From NCBI RefSeq assembly GCF_032854445.1, contig NC_088297.1:3469991-3533990 (forward strand): DNA of 64,000 bases. Reading direction: 5' to 3'. Below, in pieces: positions 9,443-55,890 of the stretch; the stretch's first letter is position 1, and each line of letters opens with the position of its first letter. This stretch comes from Liolophura sinensis (Eukaryota; Mollusca; Polyplacophora; Chitonida; Chitonidae). Made by a program: the position numbers and the translations under genes. The notes under the pieces are model-generated. The model was not told the origin of the DNA. It was given only the letters and a program-made list of their open reading frames with translations, and did not search any database.

Positions 9443-12400
9443 CTGTCAGTGAGGAACAGTGTTCTTTTGTCATGAAAAGAGTTCAACTGACAGAGTTCAT
9501 ATTTCACAACAACAGTGTTCATTTTTCATAAAACTGCTCATTTCCCTAAAACTGTTCATTTTTCACAAAAACAGTGCTCATTTTTCATAAAACAGTGCTC
9601 GTTTTTCATAAAACAGTGCTCATTTTTCATAAAACTGTTCATTTTTCACAAAAACAGTGCTCATTTTTCATAAAACAGTGCGCGTTTTTCATAAAACAGT
9701 GCTCATTTTTCATAAAACTGTTCATTTTTCACAAAAACAGTGCTCATTTTTCATAAAACTGTTCATTTTTCACAAAACAGTGCTCATTTTTCACAAAAAC
9801 AGTGCCCATTTTTCACAAAATAGTGCTCATTTTTCACAAAACAGTGCTCATTTTTCTGGGTCACTGAAATGGAATGTAGAATTATTGGGAGTTTTTTAAC
9901 CAAAATAGGAAAATGCAGAGAAAGTAATCAAAAAAACTATTTTTTCTGAATCAACATAGGGATCACAAACAAATGACTATACTAAACCAATGACTGTCAT
10001 GTGATTAGTGTTCAACACTATTCACGTATTGAAGAATTTTTCGCTTTTAATAACAGCGGTCAGTCTCATGAGTTAAGGAAACCAGAATGCCAGGGGGCAA
10101 ACCACCACTCTTCATCAGACACATGATAAACTTCCATACTTGAGGCATGATCTGGATTTGAGCCTCGTACTTCACTGGTCAGAGTAAGGCTGAAGTGAGA
10201 AGCCTTTAACTCACTGAGCAATAAAGCACACACACACCCCTCCCAACTCCCCCCCCCCCCCCCCACACACACACCCCTCCCTGAAAAGATCACAGACTTA
10301 CGATGATTGGAAGGTGAGAATTTTTTCATGTCGCAGCTCCCCCTTGTGGTTGATTGTGAAGATTCGAGAGAAGGGTATGTCCAGGGCTTTGTACGCATAA
10401 GCATCCTAAAATGTACAACAATACAACAACAACCCCACATCAATACAATATTACAGAAGAAGTGAGTATTTGATCAGATTTTCTGCATCTGAGAATGGAT
10501 TCTGGTAATGAAGATACATTTGCAGAAGAGATCGATCCACCTCAATTCATGTTGGGGCTTTCATGGCTCAGCGTGATGACCCCAGAGCTTCTCACCAATT
10601 CCATCACTGTGAGTTCAAGTCCAGCTCATGCTGGCTTCATCTCCGGCCGTTCATGGGAAGGTCCTCCAGAACCCTGTGGATGGTCCTGGGTTTCTCCTGG
10701 GCTCTGATCAGTTTCCTCCCACATTAACGCTGGCTGCCGTCGTATAAGTGAAATATTCTTGAGTATGATATAATATACCAATCAGATAAGTCAATAAATC
10801 AATTGATGTCAGATGCTTCAGTTTTTTAATTGGTAGAGTTTAAAAGGCGAACTCCATTCCAAAAATCACGCTGAGGAATTTCCAATATGACCTTAAAGCA
10901 GGTATTGAATGTTATACTGTTGTACTCAAGAATATTTCACTTATACGATGGCGGCCAGCATTATGGTGGGATAAAACCGGGCAGAGCCTCAGGGAAACCC
11001 ACGACTATCCACAGGTTGCTGAGAGACCTTCCCACAGCAAATTGCTAGCACGCTAACCAACTGAGCCACAAAGGCCCCCTTCAAGGTTATAAGGCAAACA
11101 GACTTCAAAATTTTGTCCAGTCAATTATGTACATACATGCATTTAGAGACCAAAAAAAAAGAGAGAGAGAGAGAGAAAAAGAGAGAGAGAGAGAGAGATC
11201 AGGAAAAAAAAACACACCTTATGCAGTCTGTAAGCTTTAACAAGGGTTCTCAACCATGAAATAATATGTTTTTCAAGGACTTTCAAGGTCATGAAAACCA
11301 TTCAACAACATTTAAATATTTTCCAGAAAAAGTGGCAGCCCTGAATATGATATACTTCACTGAAAAACTGTCAAGAAACGCTTCTTTCAAGGTCTACAAG
11401 GTCTTGAAAAGCCTTTCGACAAAATTCAAGTAATTTCAAGGACGAGTTACGACTCAAGGAGTAGACAACAGGATAGATTTTCCAAAAAGTGGCGCAGAAC
11501 TTACGTTGATCTTGTTCCCAAATCCAGCGTAGAAGGGCCTTTGGTTCTGAGGGAAGAGCTGGCCGATGTCACTCATACAGCTGATTTTAAACTCCTCAGG
11601 CTTCTTCTCAATCACCTCCCTGAGGAGAAAAAAAACAATGCCACTGATGAAACTGTTTATTTGCTCTAAAGGGATACAGAATCGATTCTGCCTGGCTGGT
11701 TTAAGAGACACGCAAGTCCAGGCTATGCTGAGCCTATCTCCACTATCAATTGTATTTTACTGTTAGAACGGTATACAATTTGATCTCACACTGTTTAAGG
11801 ACAATTTTTTTTCACATTTATGGCCCTAGAAATTGTCACGCAGTTGTTTTCTGAGTCCATATTATTTCTTTTGAACTGAATTCATTCAATTTAACAATTA
11901 CAGAGTTTTTACAAACAGTCATCGCCATTCCTGTGTATCAGGGTGTTAGACTTTGGACACAGCTATGATGACTGCATGGGTACACCGGCCACAAGTTGTA
12001 AACATCAGATTTTACATGTACAAGCAATTGAGCAAATCCTGCATAAAAAAATATGCAGTCACTAGACTATATAAGTTAGAAGGTATACAATTTGATCTCA
12101 CACTGTTTAAGGACAATTTTTTTTTTAATTTATGGCCATAGAAAGAAATTGTCATGCAGTTGTTTACTGAGTCCGTATTAATTCTTTTGAACTGAATTTA
12201 TTCAATTTAACCAAGGAATATTCTTGAGTACAGCGTAAAACACCAATCAAAATATATAAAGGAAAATTTAACCCACGAAAAATTTATCTCCACTAATCAG
12301 CTTCGATTCTCTATCCTTGAGTAAAATACTACATGTATTACATGTTCCAGGGCCCATACAAAATTATCACAGTTGTCCAGTGATTGAACAAACCTTTGGC

Positions 12401-15586: not shown

Positions 15587-18500
15587 GCCAGAAGTGAATT
15601 TGTTTCACAGTGAAGAAATCTGATTATGCCCACTCAAAAAAGCTGTGTCGTTTAGGCTGAGGCTGAAGTTTGAAGGACATGCAATTATTTGATGCACTCG
15701 TTTCCACGACCCATGCGTTTACATCCGCAATTTTTACTACACCCTCAATCCACCTCAGCAATAAATCCTTGTCCAATGCGTTTAAAAATGAAACATGTTC
15801 CATTTTCACTGCTTCAATGTACACGTATGCTGAGTCTTGTGGAGACAATTCTGCGTAATTATGTAATTCCCATTCTCATAAAAATTAACAAAGGAGTAAG
15901 CACTGACGCCATCCTAGGTCCGGGGAAACACAACATTGTTAACACCAACCTTTTAGTTGCATCATGAGATGGTTTCCTGGGACTGCTGGGAGCACTTGAA
16001 GCAGGACTAGGTGGCACCTCACTGAGTAAAGCTTCACTTTGTACCTAACGCACAAACAGAAGAGATTTATTTATTTATTTATTTGGTTGGAGTTTAAGGG
16101 AGTATTAAAGAATACACGACTTCTGTGACCCATTATCATGGGAGGCAAAAGGGCAAAGTTCAAGGAAAACCCTGCACACCTTGAATTCTCACGTGACCAG
16201 AGAAGAGGCCAGTATGAGCTGGTAGTGAACTCACAGCAATTGAACTGGCGAGCGAATAGAGAGTTGAAGATGTAAACATAAATCCTATACAAGTACTGAA
16301 AGCTTAGTCCCTTCCAAACATGGATACTGACTGGTGTTGTATGTACCAATGTTGGAAGTATTTCCAATATATTTTATGCTGATTTAATTTACTTTATTTG
16401 TTGTTGGTTATTTGATGGGTGTTCCAGATCCAAGAATATTCCACTTATATGACGGAGACCAGGATTATGTTGGGAGGAAACCAGGCAGAAGTGAATATTC
16501 TTGAGTACGGCATAAAACACTAATCAAAAAAGTAAAATACCAAATGCATCTAAGATCTACTTACACAAAGCTGAATCAAGACAAATGGAATCATGTAGGT
16601 AGTGATTAAATATCTCATTAATGTCAGATATCATTGTGATTTTTTGTACTCTAAATGCTATACTCTATATTCTTTGTACTCTAAATGCTATACTCTATAC
16701 TCTTTGTACTCTAAATGCTATACTCTATACTCTTTGTGCTCTAAATGCTATACTCTATACTCTTTGTACTCTAAATGCTATACTCTATACTCTTTGTGCT
16801 CTAAATGCTATTTCACAAATGGACCAGATTAAAAAGCAACAATACTGTGCAATTCCGAAAAAAGTGCTTTAGTAAGTTGTGGTTGCTCTTGGGAACTATA
16901 ATTCTGAAAAAGACAATTTTGATTATAGCTGTTCAAGGGCTAGTATAGGTATTTTGTTTCCTCAAACCTCATACACACTCAACCAATACCTGGTCGGTCT
17001 GAGAGTTTGAAAGACTGAACTCATAACCCCTTGGCCATGAACCCTGGTTACTGTACTTCTTCAACCTTTTTCGCATATTTACATGGTGTATGTTAAAGTG
17101 TATTGTGAGGGATCTATTTTGTGGTGACTGATAAAATGATACATTTCGAGAAACCCTGAAATTTGTCAACCCAACTAATTTTGACTTCAAAATAAATAAA
17201 TAAATAAACAATTAAAATGAAAAGATGAATAAATCGCACTGAAAGCTGTTCTTTCAAATGCAAAAAGGTTGAGGAATTAAGGTACATTAACAATAATGTG
17301 GCAGATAAGAATACAAACCTTCTTTGAGGACTGCACCACCACCTCGGTCACCAATTCCGTGGCGGCATTGTTCAGGACAGGTACCTTCCCTGCCACTATG
17401 GATGTGGAGATGGGAGGAGCCTCACCACTGGTTGCCACAGCAACAGTAGTTGACATGATGACAGCACTGCTACCTGATGGCGATGAGATACTAACAGCCG
17501 GAGTAGCAACGCTGACAGTTGGTGTGGCAACGCCAGCAGTCGCTATAGCAACACTCACAACTGGTGCGGCAGTGTTGACAGCCGGTGCGGCAATGCTGAC
17601 AGCTGGTGAGGCAACGCTGGCAGTCGGCATGGCAACGCTAACAACTGGTGCAGCAATGCTGACAACAGGCTCAGCAACACTAACAACTGGGGCAGCATCG
17701 CTGACAAGCGGTGCACCTGCACCAACTGAAACCGTGGCACTGACTGAAATTTTCGCAATAGGCGTTGCCTCAGCTTTTGATTCAGCGCTTGCCGTGACCT
17801 CTGAAGCTGGCACGGTGACAGCATTCACCGTGCTGATGACTTCTGCAGCTGGTGCCGAGGTCACTTCCCCTGGGCTACAGGATGTCACTGTGCCATCTGA
17901 AGACGGTGCTATAGTGGTGTGCTGCACAGTTGTCGTCGTTGTTAAGTACGCTGATGTTGTTTGGGTTTCATCAGGCGGGGCCCGTCTCCAGGAGAACCAG
18001 GACGTCACGCCTGTCTTCTTCCCTTTCTTTTTTGGCATGTGCTCTTTGATTAAATTTTGGACCGCAGACTGAAAATGATACAAGTCAGATGAGAGACCTA
18101 TGCGTGGGTGCTCTTATTTTATTTTCAATTAAGTTCACTTCATGCAGTCAGGATTATGAGTGGAGGAAAGCCGAGTCTTGAATGGAGGAGGTTTATTTGG
18201 GAGGCCGATACAACCTGGTACTACAGTAACATTTGGAGAAGGTAAATGTACATATGGCCATCTCCTCTGACCTAAGTTCTCATTATATTTCATTTAAATT
18301 CCGAGGCCAAGTAGCTGATTACTTTTCCTGTGTAGACTTTTACTCACTACAATGAGAAATGCCCAACCTACCTCTGGCAAATACTTCTGAAAAGCCACTA
18401 GAGATAAGATCTGGGGTGCAGCCGTGGCCCAGTTGTAAAATCTGAAAGGATAATTTATTCATTTTTACCCTACAGTATTGGTGTTTATTTTTTAGCTGAC

Positions 18501-21500
18501 TTACAACCACTTTTGTTTTTCAGTGTAACAGTTAAATAGAATATGCATATAGTAGCAGGCATGGTTGACACAGAGATCAGATGCCTGTTTTTCAGTGTAA
18601 CAGTTAAACAGAACGTGTATATAGTAACCGGCATGGTTGACACTGAGATCAGATTTCTGTTTTTCAGCATAACAGTTAAATAGAGCACGCATATAGTAGC
18701 CAGCATGATTGACACTGACAACAGACTTCTGTTTTTCAGTGTAACAGTTAAATAGAACATGCATATAGTAGCCAGCATGGTTGACATTGACAACAGACTT
18801 CTGTTTTTCAGTGTAACAGTTAAATAGAACATGCATATAGTAGCCAGCATGGTTGACATTGACAACAGACTTCTGTTATTCAGTGTAACAGTTAAATAGA
18901 ACAAGCATATAGTAGCCGGCATCGTTGACACTGAGATCAGACCAATATATAAACTCAGATCAGACTCCTGTTTTTTGTTGTTTTTTTTTTTTTTGTTTTT
19001 TTTCTGTGTAACAGTTTAATATAGAAATCAAACTTGTTTTTTCATTGTAACAGTTTAATATTGAACTCAGACTTGTTCTTCAGTGTCACAGATTAATGGA
19101 ACATGTATGGAGCACGCGTAGAGACACTAGCGTGGTGGACACGGAGATCAGCCTCATTGTGATTCATTGTAACAGTTGAATATTCAGATCAGTTTAACAG
19201 AAGACACACAGAGACACCAACATCGTTAACACACGTCTCATGTCTCCATATTACATGTACGATAACTGGTGACAGATGTTTGACAGGGATAATGGAGACT
19301 GTCACACGCCTGTGGGAGGGGGGGGCGTCCACAACCGTTGCGTGTCATATTTCCTGTTTACTATACCCCAATATTGTGTTGAAATAACGATGACTAACAC
19401 AGGCAAGCGTTCGTGTTAATGAGATTAAATGTCTATGCTGATGTACATGTCTGTAACTGATGACAAATTACGGCAGGAATATCTGGATAGATGCATATGA
19501 ATGTCTATGGTTCTTTAGTATTAAAACACACACTAAAGGAGTTGACTATGACATAAAACCCCAATCAAATAAATGAATAACTCCATATATAATTCATACA
19601 AATCTGAATTTGAACAAGATTTGACAAAGCCTTACTTGTCTCCTATCCTGACCACCAGGTCCGGGTGCTGTACCAAACTGAGGTCCTCGCACAGTGTGTC
19701 AAAGGTCACAACATTCTGCATGAAGTTCTCCATGGAGACCTGGCCGTCCATGTCTGACAGTCCTCCGCAGAGGGACAGCGAGACTTCCCCCAGGTGGCGT
19801 ACTTCTGACAGGAGGTAGCTGGCGGGTGGGCCCCCGATGGCACCCTCAACAGAGTGTGGGGACTGGGGTAGGGAGGCGCCCCGCCCAGATTCTGCGTCCT
19901 CTTCTTTCTCTTTGATAGACATGAAGTGGAAGGAACTGTAACAGAGATCTGATTGTTGTTTAATGTAATATTGACGAGTTATCTGCAAGGAACTGTAAGA
20001 AAGATCTGATTGTTGTTTAATGTAATATTGACGAGTTATCCGCAAGGAACTGTAACAGAGATCTGATTGTTGTTTAATGTAATATTGACGAGTTATCCGC
20101 AAGGAACTGTAACAGAGATCTGATTGTTGTTTAATGTAATATTGACGAGTTATCCGCAAGGCACTGTAACAGAGATCTGATTGTTGTTTAATGTAATATT
20201 GACGAGTTATCCGCAAGGAACTGTAACAGAGATCTGATTGTTGTTTAATGTAATATTGACGAGTTATCCGCAAGGCACTGTAACAGAGATCTGATTGTTG
20301 TTTAATGTAATATTGACGAGTTATCCGCACGGAACTGTAACAGAGATCTGATTGTTGTTTAATGTAATATTGACGAGTTATCCGCACGGAACTGTAACAG
20401 AGATCTGATTGTTGTTTAATGTAATATTGACGAGTTATCCGCAAGGAACTGTAACAGAGATCTGATTGTTGTTTAATGTAATATTGACGAGTTATCCGCA
20501 CGGAACTGTAACAGAGATCTGATTGTTGTTTAATGTAATATTGACGAGTTATCCGCACGGAACTGTAACAGAGATCTGATTGTTGTTTAATGTAATATTG
20601 ACGAGTTATCCGCACGGAACTGTAACAGAGATCTGATTGTTGTTTAATGTAATATTGACGAGTTATCCGCAAGGCACTGTAACAGAGATCTGATTGTTGT
20701 TTAATGTAATATTGACGAGTTATCCGCACGGAACTGTAACAGAGATCTGATTGTTGTTTAATGTAATATTGACGAGTTATCCGCACGGAACTGTAACAGA
20801 GATCTGATTGTTGTTTAATGTAATATTGACGAGTTATCCGCAAGGAACTGTAACAGAGATCTGATTGTTGTTTAATGTAATATTGACGAGTTATCCGCAA
20901 GTCCATGTAAGATGGTGGTCAGTTTTATGGGTGGGGAAAATGCAGTGACAAGTTAGAGACAAACACTCCCTTACATGACACACAAATATGCACACAGCAC
21001 TGAAGGAAGACAAGTGCTCTTCAATGCACATTACACTGCACAAACGTACTGTCACCAAATCCTCATGAACAGTGACAGTGGGTGATCCACAAATTCTTGT
21101 AATGTATAAGACCCAGGTTGACAGAGAGAAACAGGATTTTTTTGCTATTGTTTGCAAGCATATTTATCTAAAAATGCACTCACACGTACAAGATTACAGT
21201 CAGGTCCAGATAAAATGTAGATGAAAAGGTACAGCACCTTTTGTCAGGTACCTTAAATGACCTAATATTTTATACATATAATCAAATTCCTCCTTTTTCC
21301 TGCTTATGAAAGTTTTATTGATTTCAAAAATGTGTTTTGATGGTTGTTGGGAAGGTAGGATGATATTCTACTGGGGAAATGTAACTCTTAGCCCCAAAAG
21401 TCATATTTTATGACATTTTTTTATCTCCAAAAAATACATTTCTTTCACTGAAATTTTAGGTCATTTTTGGTAAGTCAAGGACATTTCCAGCCCAATGTTA

Positions 21501-24500
21501 CATTTAACAACTGTAAAGATTTAAAAATACTCAATGAATTAATGTTACAAAGAATACTCTAATACAACAACAGCAGAAGCCTGTTGACAACAAGTTTTAC
21601 ACAAATCAGAAGTATTACAATTCACCTTTTAAATCTACGTACCTTTTGGGGAAGTATAGTTTGGCGACCTCAGGATCCATTTCTTCTTTGGTCAGATCTT
21701 CCAGGTAAATACCTTCCTCCTCAGGCTTGTGGCGTATCGCCTTTGTCTTCCTCATGAAATAGAACAGCCCCCCGGAGTCCTGAGCCTGGGGCTTCACTAC
21801 GGAATCTAAACAATAAACATATGCTCCTTACATGTAGGCTTTTGTCCTGCTCATAATAGTTTATAACTCAGACTTCATGTGGGATACTTTATCGATTCAT
21901 AAATACTTCTGGTTAAGTTTTATCTTTTCTTTTCATGTGTTTTTCTTTTATGATTGTGGGTTTCCCCTGTAAAACACCGATGAAATAAGTAAATAAATCT
22001 TTTCTTTCAATCATAAAGGTTTAAGTCACATACATACTATAAAAGTGGAAAAGGTTATTTCAGCCTGTGTTAATCAGACATGAGTGCACACATACTGGAG
22101 CCTTGTGGGCTTGTGGAGGCAGGTTGGTCTTTAGTGGTCGGGGTCTGGTCCTGTGATGTGGAAGGGAGGGGCTGGGGCAGCTGTCCCCACTCCCACAACG
22201 TGTCGGGGGGCTGGAGCAGATGCTCCACCTCCGTCTCCTCCTGACGCTGTCTTTCACACTCTGTGTCACTCTTACAGCTTGGGCTCGGGCACCGCGTTGC
22301 TGAGGGACTACAACAACAACAACGACGACACATACATATGCAGTGAACATTTGTTACGAACAGCAAAGGCGGAATCTGTAGTATTTCTGTAGCGTAACTT
22401 TTTCATCAAGGTTTAATCCCATACTCAAGAATTTTTCACCTACAACAATGACAATCTGTTTTATGTACAGAAAAAACCAAAACCATCAACCTCTGGTAAT
22501 TTACTGACGAACTTTTCACATAGGTGACATACTGATACATGGGAAGTCGAGTGCCCTTCAGTGAAGGTTAGACAGAACAAACAGCTACATGAGTGTCACT
22601 GACGGTTTTTTATCACCAACACCCTCCAAAACAGTGAGAATGACATGCACAAATCAGATGAGATCTGAACGCACCTTCCTACAGGTGTGACATCAGTGTC
22701 GCTGAACGGATGAAGTTGAGCCTCAAACTGACTGCTCGCCCATATATCTGTACGGTCCATCCTGTCTTCCTCGGCCAGCGGCAAACTGACAGACTTCACC
22801 ATATTTGGCGGCGCAGGCGGAAGCTTCAGGTCTTCTTCATCAGACGTTACGTCCATTTCAAATATTTCCGTGTCGGGGCTTGACTTTGCCGAAGGTCTGG
22901 AATTGTTCTTCTTGTAAGGCATTTTTTTCTTCCTTCGCCGCTTCGACTTTGTGAGCTCTTCGGCAGCAGGTTTGTCTTCCCGACGTTTCACCTTGGGAGT
23001 TGTGTCCCTTGATCCGGATTCTTTAGACGAGTTGTCGCTTTCTCCGAAAGAGTCCTTGGAACTGTTTTTGGACAGGGGGGATGTTTTACTGGATTTGCCC
23101 GACACTGATAACTGTGAAACCTGTTTATTGGCAGGAAGTTTCACCTGCTTGGACTGTGTTTTGCTGCTGGAATGCTCAGATTTGAACTTATATGATGTTT
23201 CATCAAGCTGTTTCTCACAGCTCAACGATGGGGCTTGGTCATCTCTAGGTGCTTCTTTCTGATTGGTCAACTCTTCACGCTCAGCCTTTTGAGCCTGTTT
23301 CCGGAGTTCCTGGACGCCCTGCTCCATGAGGTCTGCCGTGGAAGGAATCGGGGAAGTGGCAAGATAAGGCGGAATCTGTAAAAGATTTCCGTATAAATTT
23401 TGCTAGTTTCATAAACAATTTTAAAGAAACAAAGATATACAATAACACTTTTATCAAATTTGCATAACTCCCAATGACCTGTCTTTGGACTGTTCAATAT
23501 GATGACATGGTTTTAACCTACTGTCTTCTTTTTTTTAAAAACAATTACGACAAATTGCTGTAAGAAAAAAAAATTGGGATTTGATTTCGAATACCGTCCC
23601 AAGGCTGACTTTCAAAAAACTTTTGCAAATCAGTTTTTCATCACTTTCCTGTTAAATCATGTCGCTGAATCATTGTGCTATGGACGCCATTCACGGAAAA
23701 ATGTACATTTATCCATAAGAGTCGTTAGAACCAGGGGTAATTCTTGGCACTCGAGCCCATGCAATGTGGCCTCTGTGCCCACCCATGTTAACTTTCTGGA
23801 AACAGGCATGCCAGGAAACAGAATCATACACCGTACACTGTCTACATGTACATCACAGATTTATTTATTTATCTATTTGATTGGTGTTTTACGCTGTACC
23901 CAAAAATATTTCACTCATACGACGTCAGCCAACATTATGGTGGGTGGAAACCAGGCAGAGCCCGGGGGAAACCCACGACCATCCGCAGGTTGCTAACCGA
24001 CCTTCCCAGGTACGGCCAGCATGAGCTGGACTTGAACTCACAGCGACCGCATTGGTGAGAGACTCCTGGGTCATTACGCTGCGCTAGTGCGCTAACCAAC
24101 TGAGCCACGGAGGCCCCCGTACATTACAGATGATTTGTCACTGCGGCCATGTAGAGCTCAGGTGCTCCCTGTGATTGACATTAACCCGTATCTCAGACAT
24201 TCATTCTAAAACACAGATTCCTCAATCAAATGACGACACTCTACAACATGACACTTTGATTCTCTGCAAGTCTCTAGCACCATACCAAATGCGGCACTGC
24301 ATGCAACCACTAACTCATTCACAAAGCGTACCTCCTGGAAAGCCTCTTCTTCAAGTTCCTTGACAAAAAACGCTTCTCCAGTCTCCCCGAGCTTCATGTG
24401 CAAGTCGACGGGCTCTCCGTTAATTTCAATGTCCACCTGAGCAGGTAAGGTGAAGAAATACAGATTGGGGTAAGGACATTTGTATTCTTTTCTTTAACCA

Positions 24501-51639: not shown

Positions 51640-52317
51640 GAAGTTTATGGTATTTCCTTGTTAGTAAAACTAGACGGTTGCAGTTTCAGTCATCATGGTA
51701 AGATGTAGAAATAAATCTGTTTTGCTCCTTTAATTATGCCTGATGGAACTTTTTTAGCAAGCAGAAGTTTAAGAAAATGAATATTGGCCATGTTGAGACA
51801 TATACAGCTGTATAATTTGAAGAGAAAATATGGTGTGTAAGGTGCTTATCAAAATATTTTCTGGAACAGATAGAGATGCAAGATTTTTCTGACATTTTAA
51901 AAACGTATTTACATGATTGCGTAAAACTTTTGTTCTTTAATGTCTGCTTATTTTGATGCTTTTGTGTGGTGGATTTTCCATGTTTGAGCTCTGATGGTTG
52001 TTTTGCAGAGTGTAAGGCCAAGATAAAAAAAGTTGTTTTGGTAATAAGCTCAGTTTGTTAATTATTTTACTTCTCTTTTATTTTATTAATTTCCAAGGTA
52101 ATTATTACGGATTTAAGTTGCATTCAGCACAGATCAAATAAATTCATCCAGATTTACATTCAACATTTGTTGACTTTCTAACTGCAGCAACAGATCCAAT
52201 TTAAAAGTTAAATTGTTGAATTTAGTAAAATAACTTTTCAATTAATGCCTAAAGAAAAAAGTAAAAGAACACCTGAAAAGTATAAATGTGATGAACAGAT
52301 GAATATTTTTGTCTCAG
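51640..52317. other. Last TTF2 leader intron
   Basis: AT-rich, no coding similarity. Ends with acceptor ATTTTTGTCTCAG at 52317. Confidence 0.5.
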
Positions 52318-52332
52318 GTGGCAGCAAGGAAG

Positions 52333-55300
52333 ATGGAGTCAGTGTCATGCTCCAGACATGGTGCACCATGCATGCTGAAGACTGGAAGTAAGTCAGGCCC
52401 CAACTATGGCAAGAGTTTCTACATCTGTAGTGTTCTCAGAGACAAGTGTGACTTTGTGAAAAGTGCCCCAAATGTTCCCAGCAGTTACTGTTTGAAGCAC
52501 CCTGACAATATCGCTGACCTTCAGTACATCGCTGAGGGAAAAGTCTCAGGGGAAAAGCGGCATTACTACAGGTGTCGTGAGAGAGTGGAAAGCGGCTCAA
52601 ATTGGTGTGGGTACTCAGTGATCGGCACCATACCGAGAATAGACCCGCTCAGAGATAGCCAGCTGCACAACGTTGATGAGTCCGTGATTATTACATCAGT
52701 GTCCGTGAAGAAAGCTGTGTCTGACGCAGAAGGGAAACTGTCAGCAGCTTCGCAAAAAACTGCAGCTCGCGACAGGTGCTCACTCAATGGCAGCCGGATC
52801 CAGGAACATGGTTCAAAGATCACAACTGGGAGTAGACAGACTGGAGTGAGTAACACGGGAATGCCTGATAACGGAGCGAATAGTACAATAGTGGCAGGTA
52901 GTCATGCTTCGTCATCGTCAGAAGTCATCAATTTAGATGAAACTTCCTTCGGCCTGGCCGACACGCCACCAATGATTATGGCAAACTCAACTCTAATCGA
53001 AGAAGATAATGCTGTTAACACTGAAGTAAATGCACCCCCTAAAAGCCTGACAAGCTCTATTCATATAGATCTGACGAAAACGGCGCCAGTTACATCACTG
53101 TCCTCCAAATTGCACCAGTCGAATGGGCACACTGCCACTCACAGCTCAAAGCAGCAGACCTCAGGTACCAGTGAACATGGTGGGAGTGGCGACCGTCACA
53201 GATCTCAGCTGACAATGGAAATAAACCAATCCATGAAGGAAAAACTGACCAGAGAGCTGAAACAAAAGAAACAAATGCTTGGCACTGTGAATCTGAACAC
53301 GCTTCCTGACAAAGGTAGACGACTTCATGACCAGGTAGAGGATCTTCAACGACAGCTGTCGTACCTCAATCTTCAGTTGGTCAACAATCCACATCTAGCT
53401 AAAGAAGCAGCTTCCGTGGCTTCAGCGAAGAGCTCTGTGCCTCCCAATGTGCCCCCTGCGCCTCCAGTACCAGCAGCATCAAAACCTGTCCCATTGAAGA
53501 TTAGTACAGCATCTCATGTACGCCCGTTGGACCCCAAAGACCACAGGGCGTCGTCAGCGCCCATTGTCCGTCCAATAGATCCAAAGTCCACATCGTCAGC
53601 ATCTTCGGTACGCCCACTGGCTCCAAAGGCTCCACCAGCCCCTCAGGTTTACACGGTGTACCCTTCCCAACCGTCTGGCTCTACTGGTCAGACCAAAACC
53701 ATTCATGTGCTTCATCAGCCTAAAGGGGCCTCAGGGGATAGCGGTTCTAAGCAAATTGTCCAAGGCACAAAGCAGACGGTGTTATCCTTTAAAACGATGT
53801 CATCTGCTTCAGGACAAAAGCAGACAATCGCTCTTGAAAAACCAGAGCCTATACCAGATCATGTTCTTCAACAAATGTATGGAGCCAATCCACAGATGAA
53901 GACTCTGTACGGCGGACGTATGACTGCAGACAGATTGAAGGAAGTGGGCTCTGTGACGAAGGACGCTATAGAAGGCCTTCATAAACAGTTGGAAAGGCGA
54001 CCCGCAGAAACGGCTGAAGTTGAGGATCCAAGAGGCTTAAAAGTCAATTTGATGATACACCAGAGACAAGCTCTGGCGTGGCTTATTTGGCGGGAGCACC
54101 AAACACCTGCGGGAGGGATTCTGGCCGATGATATGGGACTGGGAAAAACATTGACGATGATTTCACTGGTGATGAAGCAGCGGGAGCTGAAAGGCCCGGA
54201 ACAGGAAGCAACTGCTTCTGGCAGAAAGTCTGGAGATTGGATGAGTAAGGACAAGCAGTTACATAAGGTAGATAAAAACATCATCAAGTCGCGAGCGACA
54301 CTCGTCATATGTCCAGCTTCTCTTATTCATCAGTGGCAAAAAGAAATTGAAAACAGGGTCACGCCTGGGATTCTGGAAAAAGTTTTGCTGTACCACGGCC
54401 CAAACAGAGAACCCAACGTCCTGAAACTGGCGGACAATGACATCGTCCTGACGACTTATAACATAGTCAGCAAAGAAGTGGCATCTGATGCTAGCGCTAA
54501 AGATGCTGAAAAACCAGTCGAAGATCAGGACTTCCTCAAAGGGAAGAAGGGAAAGAATATGCCGAACTTGTTAAAGATTGCTTGGGAGCGAGTGATCTTG
54601 GATGAAGCACACAATATAAAGAATCATAAGTGCAAGACAGCGATAGGAGTATGCCGTCTTAGGGCCTGGTGCAGGTGGGCCCTCACTGGGACACCTATCC
54701 AAAATGACCTTATTGACATGTACTCTTTACTCCGCTTCCTTAGGTGTTCTCCCTTTGACGAATTCCAGGTGTGGAAGAGACAGGTAGCCACGAACGCTGG
54801 GACAGGCAAAGTCCGTCTAAACACTCTGGTCAAAACGTTCTTGCTAAGGAGAGAGAAGAATCAGAAAGGACCGGGAGGAAAACCTTTGGTTCCGTTGCCG
54901 ACGAAGACTATCATTGTGCACGAGTTACGGCTTTCCAAAGAGGAAAAATCCGTCTATGATAAAGTATATGCCCAGTCTCAGTCGAAGTTCAAAGACTATC
55001 TTAAAAGGCATGCTGAAAAGAACGGAGGAGACCAGTATCTAAACGACACGGCACCGGCTTCCTTAGGCGGTCGGAATCCTTTTATGGACAAGCCTGGCGC
55101 GTCGACTGGCCCGGTATTAGGTCAGAAGGGTACAGGAGGCACCCATATCCTCGTATCCCTGCTTCGCCTGAGGCAGTGCTGTGGTCATCTCAGCCTGCTC
55201 AAAGAGGCCATAGAGGATGATGTCTTGGAGACGGAGGGCATCGAACTCACTCTAGAAGAACAGATGAGAGGCCTGATGTTGGGTGACAGTGAGAAACCTG

Positions 55301-55890
55301 GCAAAAAATCGGCTAAATCCGAGAAATCTTTGGATCAGTTCGACATTGCGAAGGTAAGCACGAAGGTCAAGGCCGTGATGAACGGTCTGATGGAAGTGCA
55401 GAAGAAATCCACAAAGTCAGATCCCATCAAAAGCGTGGTGGTGTCTCAGTGGACGAGAATGCTGGAAATTGTTGCCCATCACTTGCTTAAGGCAGGGATA
55501 CGTTGTAGCGTAATCCAGGGAAACATCCCACCTCATAAACGCATGGAAACTGTTGAGGATTTCAACACTAATCCAACAGGACCCACAGTGTTACTGCTGT
55601 CCCTGAGGGCAGGTGGCGTGGGCCTGAACTTAATCGGAGGGAGCAACCTGTTCTTGTTGGACCAGCACTGGAATCCTGCCTTGGAGGAACAAGCCTTCGA
55701 TCGGGTCTACAGGGTCGGTCAGACTAAAGACGTTGTCATCCACAAATTCCTGTGCGCCGAAACGGTGGAGGAGAAAATCGCTGAGCTTCAGAAATGGAAA
55801 ACTGAGTTGGCGAATGACATTCTCACTGGGACTGGTGGTACCAAGCGTAAGCTGACGTTGGCGGACTTGCGTCTACTGTTTGGCGTTTAG
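52333..55890 (+). CDS. TTF2: Transcription termination factor 2 (SNF2-family ATPase, lodestar homologue), single-exon reading frame
   Basis: TTF2 is a double-stranded-DNA-dependent ATPase that releases RNA polymerase II and its transcripts, notably at mitosis. The protein has 1185 residues (human about 1160). A GRF zinc finger uses C6, H9, C32 and C39, and a second CHCC cluster follows (C53, H56, C81, C92). A long Ser/Thr/Pro-rich linker contains the conserved TTF2 segment TLPDKGRRLHDQVEDL. SNF2 motifs are I DDMGLGKT (599-606), II DEAH (757-760), III TGTPIQN (785-791), V near LRAGGVGLNL (1091-1100) and VI DRVYRVGQ (1123-1130). It ends LTLADLRLLFGV as in vertebrates. The ATG at 52333 is the first in the exon, which begins at 52318 after a TTTTTGTCTCAG acceptor. 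No intron interrupts the frame, which is unusual as vertebrate TTF2 has many. Confidence 0.97.
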   Translation: MESVSCSRHGAPCMLKTGSKSGPNYGKSFYICSVLRDKCDFVKSAPNVPSSYCLKHPDNIADLQYIAEGKVSGEKRHYYRCRERVESGSNWCGYSVIGTIPRIDPLRDSQLHNVDESVIITSVSVKKAVSDAEGKLSAASQKTAARDRCSLNGSRIQEHGSKITTGSRQTGVSNTGMPDNGANSTIVAGSHASSSSEVINLDETSFGLADTPPMIMANSTLIEEDNAVNTEVNAPPKSLTSSIHIDLTKTAPVTSLSSKLHQSNGHTATHSSKQQTSGTSEHGGSGDRHRSQLTMEINQSMKEKLTRELKQKKQMLGTVNLNTLPDKGRRLHDQVEDLQRQLSYLNLQLVNNPHLAKEAASVASAKSSVPPNVPPAPPVPAASKPVPLKISTASHVRPLDPKDHRASSAPIVRPIDPKSTSSASSVRPLAPKAPPAPQVYTVYPSQPSGSTGQTKTIHVLHQPKGASGDSGSKQIVQGTKQTVLSFKTMSSASGQKQTIALEKPEPIPDHVLQQMYGANPQMKTLYGGRMTADRLKEVGSVTKDAIEGLHKQLERRPAETAEVEDPRGLKVNLMIHQRQALAWLIWREHQTPAGGILADDMGLGKTLTMISLVMKQRELKGPEQEATASGRKSGDWMSKDKQLHKVDKNIIKSRATLVICPASLIHQWQKEIENRVTPGILEKVLLYHGPNREPNVLKLADNDIVLTTYNIVSKEVASDASAKDAEKPVEDQDFLKGKKGKNMPNLLKIAWERVILDEAHNIKNHKCKTAIGVCRLRAWCRWALTGTPIQNDLIDMYSLLRFLRCSPFDEFQVWKRQVATNAGTGKVRLNTLVKTFLLRREKNQKGPGGKPLVPLPTKTIIVHELRLSKEEKSVYDKVYAQSQSKFKDYLKRHAEKNGGDQYLNDTAPASLGGRNPFMDKPGASTGPVLGQKGTGGTHILVSLLRLRQCCGHLSLLKEAIEDDVLETEGIELTLEEQMRGLMLGDSEKPGKKSAKSEKSLDQFDIAKVSTKVKAVMNGLMEVQKKSTKSDPIKSVVVSQWTRMLEIVAHHLLKAGIRCSVIQGNIPPHKRMETVEDFNTNPTGPTVLLLSLRAGGVGLNLIGGSNLFLLDQHWNPALEEQAFDRVYRVGQTKDVVIHKFLCAETVEEKIAELQKWKTELANDILTGTGGTKRKLTLADLRLLFGV

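Follow-up and report, generated by a model that had tools for sequence, protein, structure and literature searches.

NAGNAG tandem acceptors are a familiar source of alternative acceptors in one phase. The closest described relatives of the locus analysed here are the mirages of amphioxus, minisatellites that arise from tandem duplication across an exon–intron boundary and that are documented for the globins BflGb6 and BflGb9 (PMC3087553) and for PGBD5 (PMC3902484), with further examples in Adh3 and troponin C (TnC) cited in both papers, each of which is drawn on here in part. According to the relevant parts of the globin report, RT-PCR of the globins together with data on Adh3 suggests that mirages do not interfere with regular splicing, the copied AG/GT signals could serve as cryptic sites, and units at the edge of a globin cluster escape homogenisation (PMC3087553). 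As far as the parts of this literature used here describe them, amphioxus units measure 10–160 bp, many contain AG or GT, and acceptors and donors are both affected. We analysed a tandem array at an acceptor of the lipin gene of the chiton Liolophura sinensis and find that it is very probably a mirage-type minisatellite that is tolerated by its host gene, its extra copies being spliced out as intron.

The window, by which we mean the whole 64,000-nucleotide stretch of DNA that was analysed, carries the lipin gene on its minus strand, and all three LNS2 matches found in a search of the genome (609,464,459 bases in 632 contigs) lie within it. The assembly, GCA_032854445.1, was first named Liolophura japonica, a name later corrected to L. 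sinensis (PMC12441733). The lipin exon that adjoins the array (Table 1) continues in the frame matched by the Pfam profile Lipin_mid. This exon had been labelled exon 7; it is the sixth coding exon found by eye, and the label would be right if a 5' UTR exon exists. Its acceptor tract contains 10 pyrimidines in 16 positions; the count is 9–14 in ten further acceptors of the gene that were identified by eye. Three further minisatellites lie in the lipin gene, one of them within a large exon and two in introns (Table 1). The two intronic ones were considered as additional mirages and rejected, as both stop short of the next acceptor. The window also holds a long open frame (Table 1) that we take to be a TTF2-like gene.

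Table 1 Features of the lipin locus, of the mirages found elsewhere in the genome and of sequences noted alongside them. Numbers without a locus or contig name are window positions; a slash marks an exon–intron junction.
Feature	Position	Strand	Period and copies	Description
Preceding lipin coding exon	21643..21805	-		Donor AAAAG/GTACGT; last base 21643; ends in phase 2
Outer array edge	20895..20910	-		TTACATGGACTTGCGG versus unit TTACAGTTCCTTGCGG
57-bp tandem array	19930..20901	-	57 bp x 17.1	98% matches (TRF); checked unit by unit
Complete 57-bp units between first copied and authentic acceptor	19936..20847	-	57 bp x 16	Cut unit by unit at TTACAG
Exon-proximal units 15 and 16	19936..20049	-		The only units with private differences (array edge)
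Lipin coding exon with authentic acceptor	19636..19935	-		300 nt, phase 2 to phase 2; AG at 19936-19937
72-bp array, next lipin intron	18509-18942		72 bp x 6	Ends ~70 bp before following acceptor; several units terminate in acceptor-like AAAAACAG
21-bp minisatellite within large lipin exon	17506-17714		21 bp	Encodes VSVA/VSIAAP-like repeats
21-bp array directly upstream of last lipin exon found	9490-9856		21 bp	Stops ~50 bp before acceptor of that exon
Open frame	52303-55890			1195 codons; GRF zinc finger, SNF2 and helicase C domains
L051 acceptor mirage	L051 9-705		32 bp x 21.9	TTTGTAG/GTTTGAGC
L071 acceptor mirage			64 bp x 6.4	TTGTACAG/GAAGCCATGTCC
L042 donor mirage			31 bp x 18.0	CTCACACAG/GT
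L049 donor mirage			66 bp x 8.1	GATCATCAG/GTATGT
L057 donor mirage			32 bp x 7.5	GGCAACAT/GTGAGTAT
L045 donor mirage	L045 184-866	-	~140 bp x 4.9	Long exon piece in unit
Diverged copies of globin exon start	L019 1380-1520		2 copies	In upstream intron
Globin cluster (G000)	C6:69353344-69458344			Eight globin exon matches clustered on the two strands; several are closely similar

The array contains seventeen near-identical acceptors, as the sequence-only reading had stated: TTACAG recurs seventeen times at exact 57-bp spacing. The copied AGs have their G at 19993, 20050 and so on up to 20848, and the last occurrence belongs to the exon itself, whose first base is 19935. Each full unit consists of about 51 bp of the intron's 3' end and 6 bp identical to the exon start, which form the first six bases of the consensus; that is, the repeat unit spans the exon–intron boundary, and its copies keep the AG signal, 16 of them copied and one authentic. 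The earlier description holds apart from small details. The array, said to end exactly at the exon boundary, does adjoin the exon but actually ends six bases inside it; and the acceptor followed by TTCC that was ascribed to every unit is found in its exact form (CTCTGTTACAG plus TTCC) in 12 of the 16 upstream copies, whereas the other four differ, three having TGCC after the AG and one an altered tract (CTTTCTTACAG). Upstream of the AG, 16 of the 17 copies share the same 45 nt.

Near-identity of this degree bears out the view that the array is recent or homogenised. Five distinct changes make up the variation among units, four altering a residue (L-V, S-A, C-S, R-Q) and one silent; they are too few for a test, and selection for a peptide is not apparent in them. 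Private changes occur in units 15 and 16, next to the exon, and recall the edge effect reported for an amphioxus globin mirage, which would favour a mirage here; they are absent from the outermost full unit, so that the edge effect, at this one locus and in one haplotype, is seen on one side only. Inflation of the copy number by the assembly is highly improbable. A heterozygosity of about 1.2% and a HiFi coverage of 14x, both given in the part of PMC11068029 used here, count towards such an artefact, but the units differ from each other in a fixed order, and the mean HiFi read length of 8.3 kb in the same source, over eight times the 0.97-kb array, makes it unlikely (PMC11068029).

A DNA search of the genome with the lipin unit returned 13 matches, all within the array, and thereby one copy of the locus in the assembly; the 15-base acceptor word was found once elsewhere than in the array. 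An origin of the unit from a dispersed or mobile repeat is thus unsupported, the genome search having given no unit match outside the array. Derivation from the window's other minisatellites was likewise rejected: aligned locally with all other parts of the window, the unit reached a best score of 28, which is also the 99% point of 300 shuffles, and no relation was shown. By eye the unit contains no donor-like GT, and it therefore makes no new intron or cassette exon.

We propose that a tandem duplication spanned the intron/exon junction, taking in some 51 bp of intron end and 6 bp of exon, and that the duplicate then grew to 17 copies, presumably through unequal exchange or slippage. Short homology for the first duplication could have come from the array's outer edge, TTACATGGACTTGCGG, which is similar to the inner edge, TTACAGTTCCTTCC. 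In the resulting gene sixteen copies would be removed with the intron, and the spliceosome would normally take the exon-adjacent copy at 19935. Acceptor strength cannot decide among the copies, because the 45 nt before the AG are shared by all but one of them, so that position and exon context must; the exon-adjacent copy would be chosen because only that copy joins the full exon and the nearby donor. This copy also yields the shortest exon, the choice expected under exon definition. We expect splicing at 19935 with at most slight leakage. Two considerations stand against a mirage that is simply tolerated: seventeen acceptors of ordinary tract strength might leak, and the lipin array is open in frame with a period divisible by three, unlike six other mirages of the same genome taken together.

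These six came from a survey of the boundaries of conserved exons. A first set comprised 59 fetched loci, representing 3 of 3 LNS2, 20 of 25 globin, 8 of 8 hemocyanin and 28 of 81 myosin matches, to which we added 11 neighbouring myosin matches that lie in the fetched loci and have 300 bp or more of flanking sequence, for a total of 70 exon matches and 140 boundaries. A second set comprised 28 of 132 kinesin matches, picked by rank before their sequence was seen, and contributed 56 boundaries (40 + 16); 40 had been intended, of which the first 28 were used, and none of these has an internal stop. Beyond the lipin array, clear mirages, judged by eye, were present at 6 of the 196 boundaries, on donors and acceptors alike (Table 1), five of them at myosin matches of the first set and one at a kinesin match. 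The globin, hemocyanin and LNS2 matches of the first set yielded no clear mirage and one doubtful globin case.

At locus L051, a myosin P-loop exon is preceded by about 22 units ending in its own acceptor, more copies than at lipin and with a frame-shifting period. The unit of L045 holds some 100 bp of exon together with the donor and thereby places copied exon ends inside the intron. In all six mirages the copied sites tested (the nearest copy, or the nearest four for L051) bring a stop, and the single period divisible by three, that of L049 (66), comes with a stop in each unit read. Functional mRNA from these genes, provided that they are expressed, should therefore use the exon-adjacent site, and in each of the six this site is also the shortest-exon choice, being the first copy for donors and the last for acceptors.

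Several other arrays were set aside. Some lie near a boundary and not across it, on the donor side of L041 (about 30 bp off) and L068, on the acceptor side of L055 (about 22 bp off) and L076, and at L007 (A-rich), and were not counted; the donor sides of L055 and L051 and the globin acceptor of L019, where the copies have diverged, were doubtful and were likewise left uncounted as mirages. Two further copies of a 20-mer on the acceptor side of L048 also stand outside the count. The L019 copies repeat the first bases of the globin exon (Table 1) and may be what is left of an old mirage in decay, comparable to one in an amphioxus globin. The globin cluster on C6 (Table 1) is perhaps a multidomain hemoglobin locus, and the genome encodes an eight-unit hemocyanin of the molluscan kind. 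This hemocyanin spoke against an amphioxus origin of the DNA, which the mirage literature had at first suggested and which was rejected; a search for the GFP family gave no match either, but it matched nothing in control genomes and is therefore of little weight.

The presence of similar arrays in unrelated genes of the same genome, on donors and on acceptors, argues against a regulatory role at lipin, in which the array would act as a splicing regulator or decoy, slowing or tuning how the exon's acceptor is used while itself staying out of the mRNA. Such a role would draw on the competition of seventeen acceptors for one donor, and it has a parallel in C. elegans, where intronic minisatellites have been linked to multiple alternative splicing decisions (PMC4039745, cited from part of the paper); we nevertheless consider it very unlikely.

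The sequence-only reading had instead proposed that splice choice among the copies generates length-variable lipin isoforms, with 19 to 304 residues added between two conserved blocks. Its structural premises are borne out: the preceding exon ends in phase 2 and each copied acceptor adds 19 residues in frame, so that all 16 upstream acceptors are in one phase, and the lipin frame runs through all 16 units without a stop, whereas the other two frames of the lipin strand do contain stops within array units. The open frame is weak evidence, however, because a unit with the base composition of the array unit was open in a given frame in 28% (0.279) of 20,000 shuffles and a period divisible by three has a one-in-three chance. 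An in-phase open array is accordingly expected by chance at about 0.09 per array (about 9% of arrays), or 0.49 for at least one among seven, and the open lipin frame, the exception among the seven mirages, fits chance. The isoform proposal is further weakened by the four residue-altering changes among five, few as these are, by the stops that copied sites bring in the six other mirages, and by an internal exon of about 1.2 kb that the farthest acceptor would yield. Amphioxus mirages, too, are reported not to disturb regular splicing in the parts of PMC3087553 and PMC3902484 used here. Taken together, we regard length-variable isoforms as unlikely and favour a tolerated mirage whose copies leave with the intron.

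Mirages could reflect either abundant arrays or arrays that favour junctions. Merged minisatellite arrays number 17 in the window, 12 in 70 kb of arbitrary sequence and 27 in 191 kb around conserved exons, a sample in which some loci overlap and are counted twice. Minisatellites fill 5–8% of the sampled sequence, and raw material for mirages is thus plentiful. Zones in which a 20-mer was found at least twice more made up 15 of 196 boundary zones (7.7%), compared with 32, 62 and 45 of 400 random zones, or 29, 51 and 51 of 400 in a narrower search (exon-locus flanks, 10-kb stretches and window, respectively). Overall, arrays are not denser near exons.

We then applied a strict rule, under which a 20-mer across the junction recurs two or more times on the intron side while the exon side is unrepeated. 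With the lipin array that prompted the survey left out, 5 of the 196 boundaries (L051, L071, L042, L049 and L057) conform to this rule; L045 does not, because its unit includes a long piece of exon. At random points the rule held for 14 of 4,000 in exon-locus flanks, 24 of 4,000 in seven arbitrary 10-kb stretches and 22 of 3,000 in the window, which gives an expectation of 0.7 to 1.4 against the 5 observed (Poisson P 0.0007 to 0.016), with the random points sharing arrays, four of the five cases at myosin matches and two of these, L042 and L049, which probably belong to one gene, separated by about 2.5 kb. Array ends therefore span junctions some 3.5–7 times more often than they span random points, a ratio in which boundaries are the ends of profile matches and not mapped splice sites, and in which the reading by eye and the strict rule were applied to the boundaries flagged as repeated and not to every one. 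The evidence that arrays near an exon tend to end across the junction, beyond what random placement would give, is suggestive only. Even without an excess, arrays of this density would leave roughly one exon boundary in two hundred with copied splice sites. A broader scenario, tentative and in our view rather doubtful, is that chiton minisatellites are seeded across junctions preferentially, as in amphioxus and independently of it, that about 3% of boundaries carry copied sites, that the outermost copy is reliably used, and that open frames such as that of lipin leak length-variable proteins.

These observations extend a lancelet structure to a mollusc, where it is not rare (6/196 boundaries). 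If this proportion held genome-wide, which is an extrapolation, arrays of this kind would number in the thousands in the chiton and, with their near-identical splice sites, would offer a natural experiment on how the spliceosome picks among equal sites and on whether junctions seed tandem duplication and intron gain. We found no earlier report of mirages in molluscs in the open-licence literature, which leaves their absence from print unproven; in a text search, a chiton genome paper (PMC12005716) does not mention minisatellites and uses 'tandem' once, for gene duplication.

The array shares features with several known systems. Like intron gain by tandem genomic duplication, it involves a duplication that copies splice signals, but, unlike that process as described in the parts of PMC4974935 and PMC3443670 used here, the lipin copies sit inside an existing intron. 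As in a coding VNTR, the repeat is open in the host frame. With NAGNAG sites it has in common alternative acceptors in one phase, and it differs from them by its 57-bp spacing, its 17 sites and its minisatellite origin. The closest correspondence is with the amphioxus mirages, which are likewise tandem boundary copies that retain splice signals; the chiton array differs in its mollusc host, in combining 17 acceptors in one array that is open in the host frame, and in having counterparts at myosin and kinesin exons. The range of mirages in the parts of the published accounts used here is the cephalochordates, and the chiton case falls outside that range but not outside the definition, so that, as far as our searches show, mirages in a mollusc represent a new phylum for a known structure.
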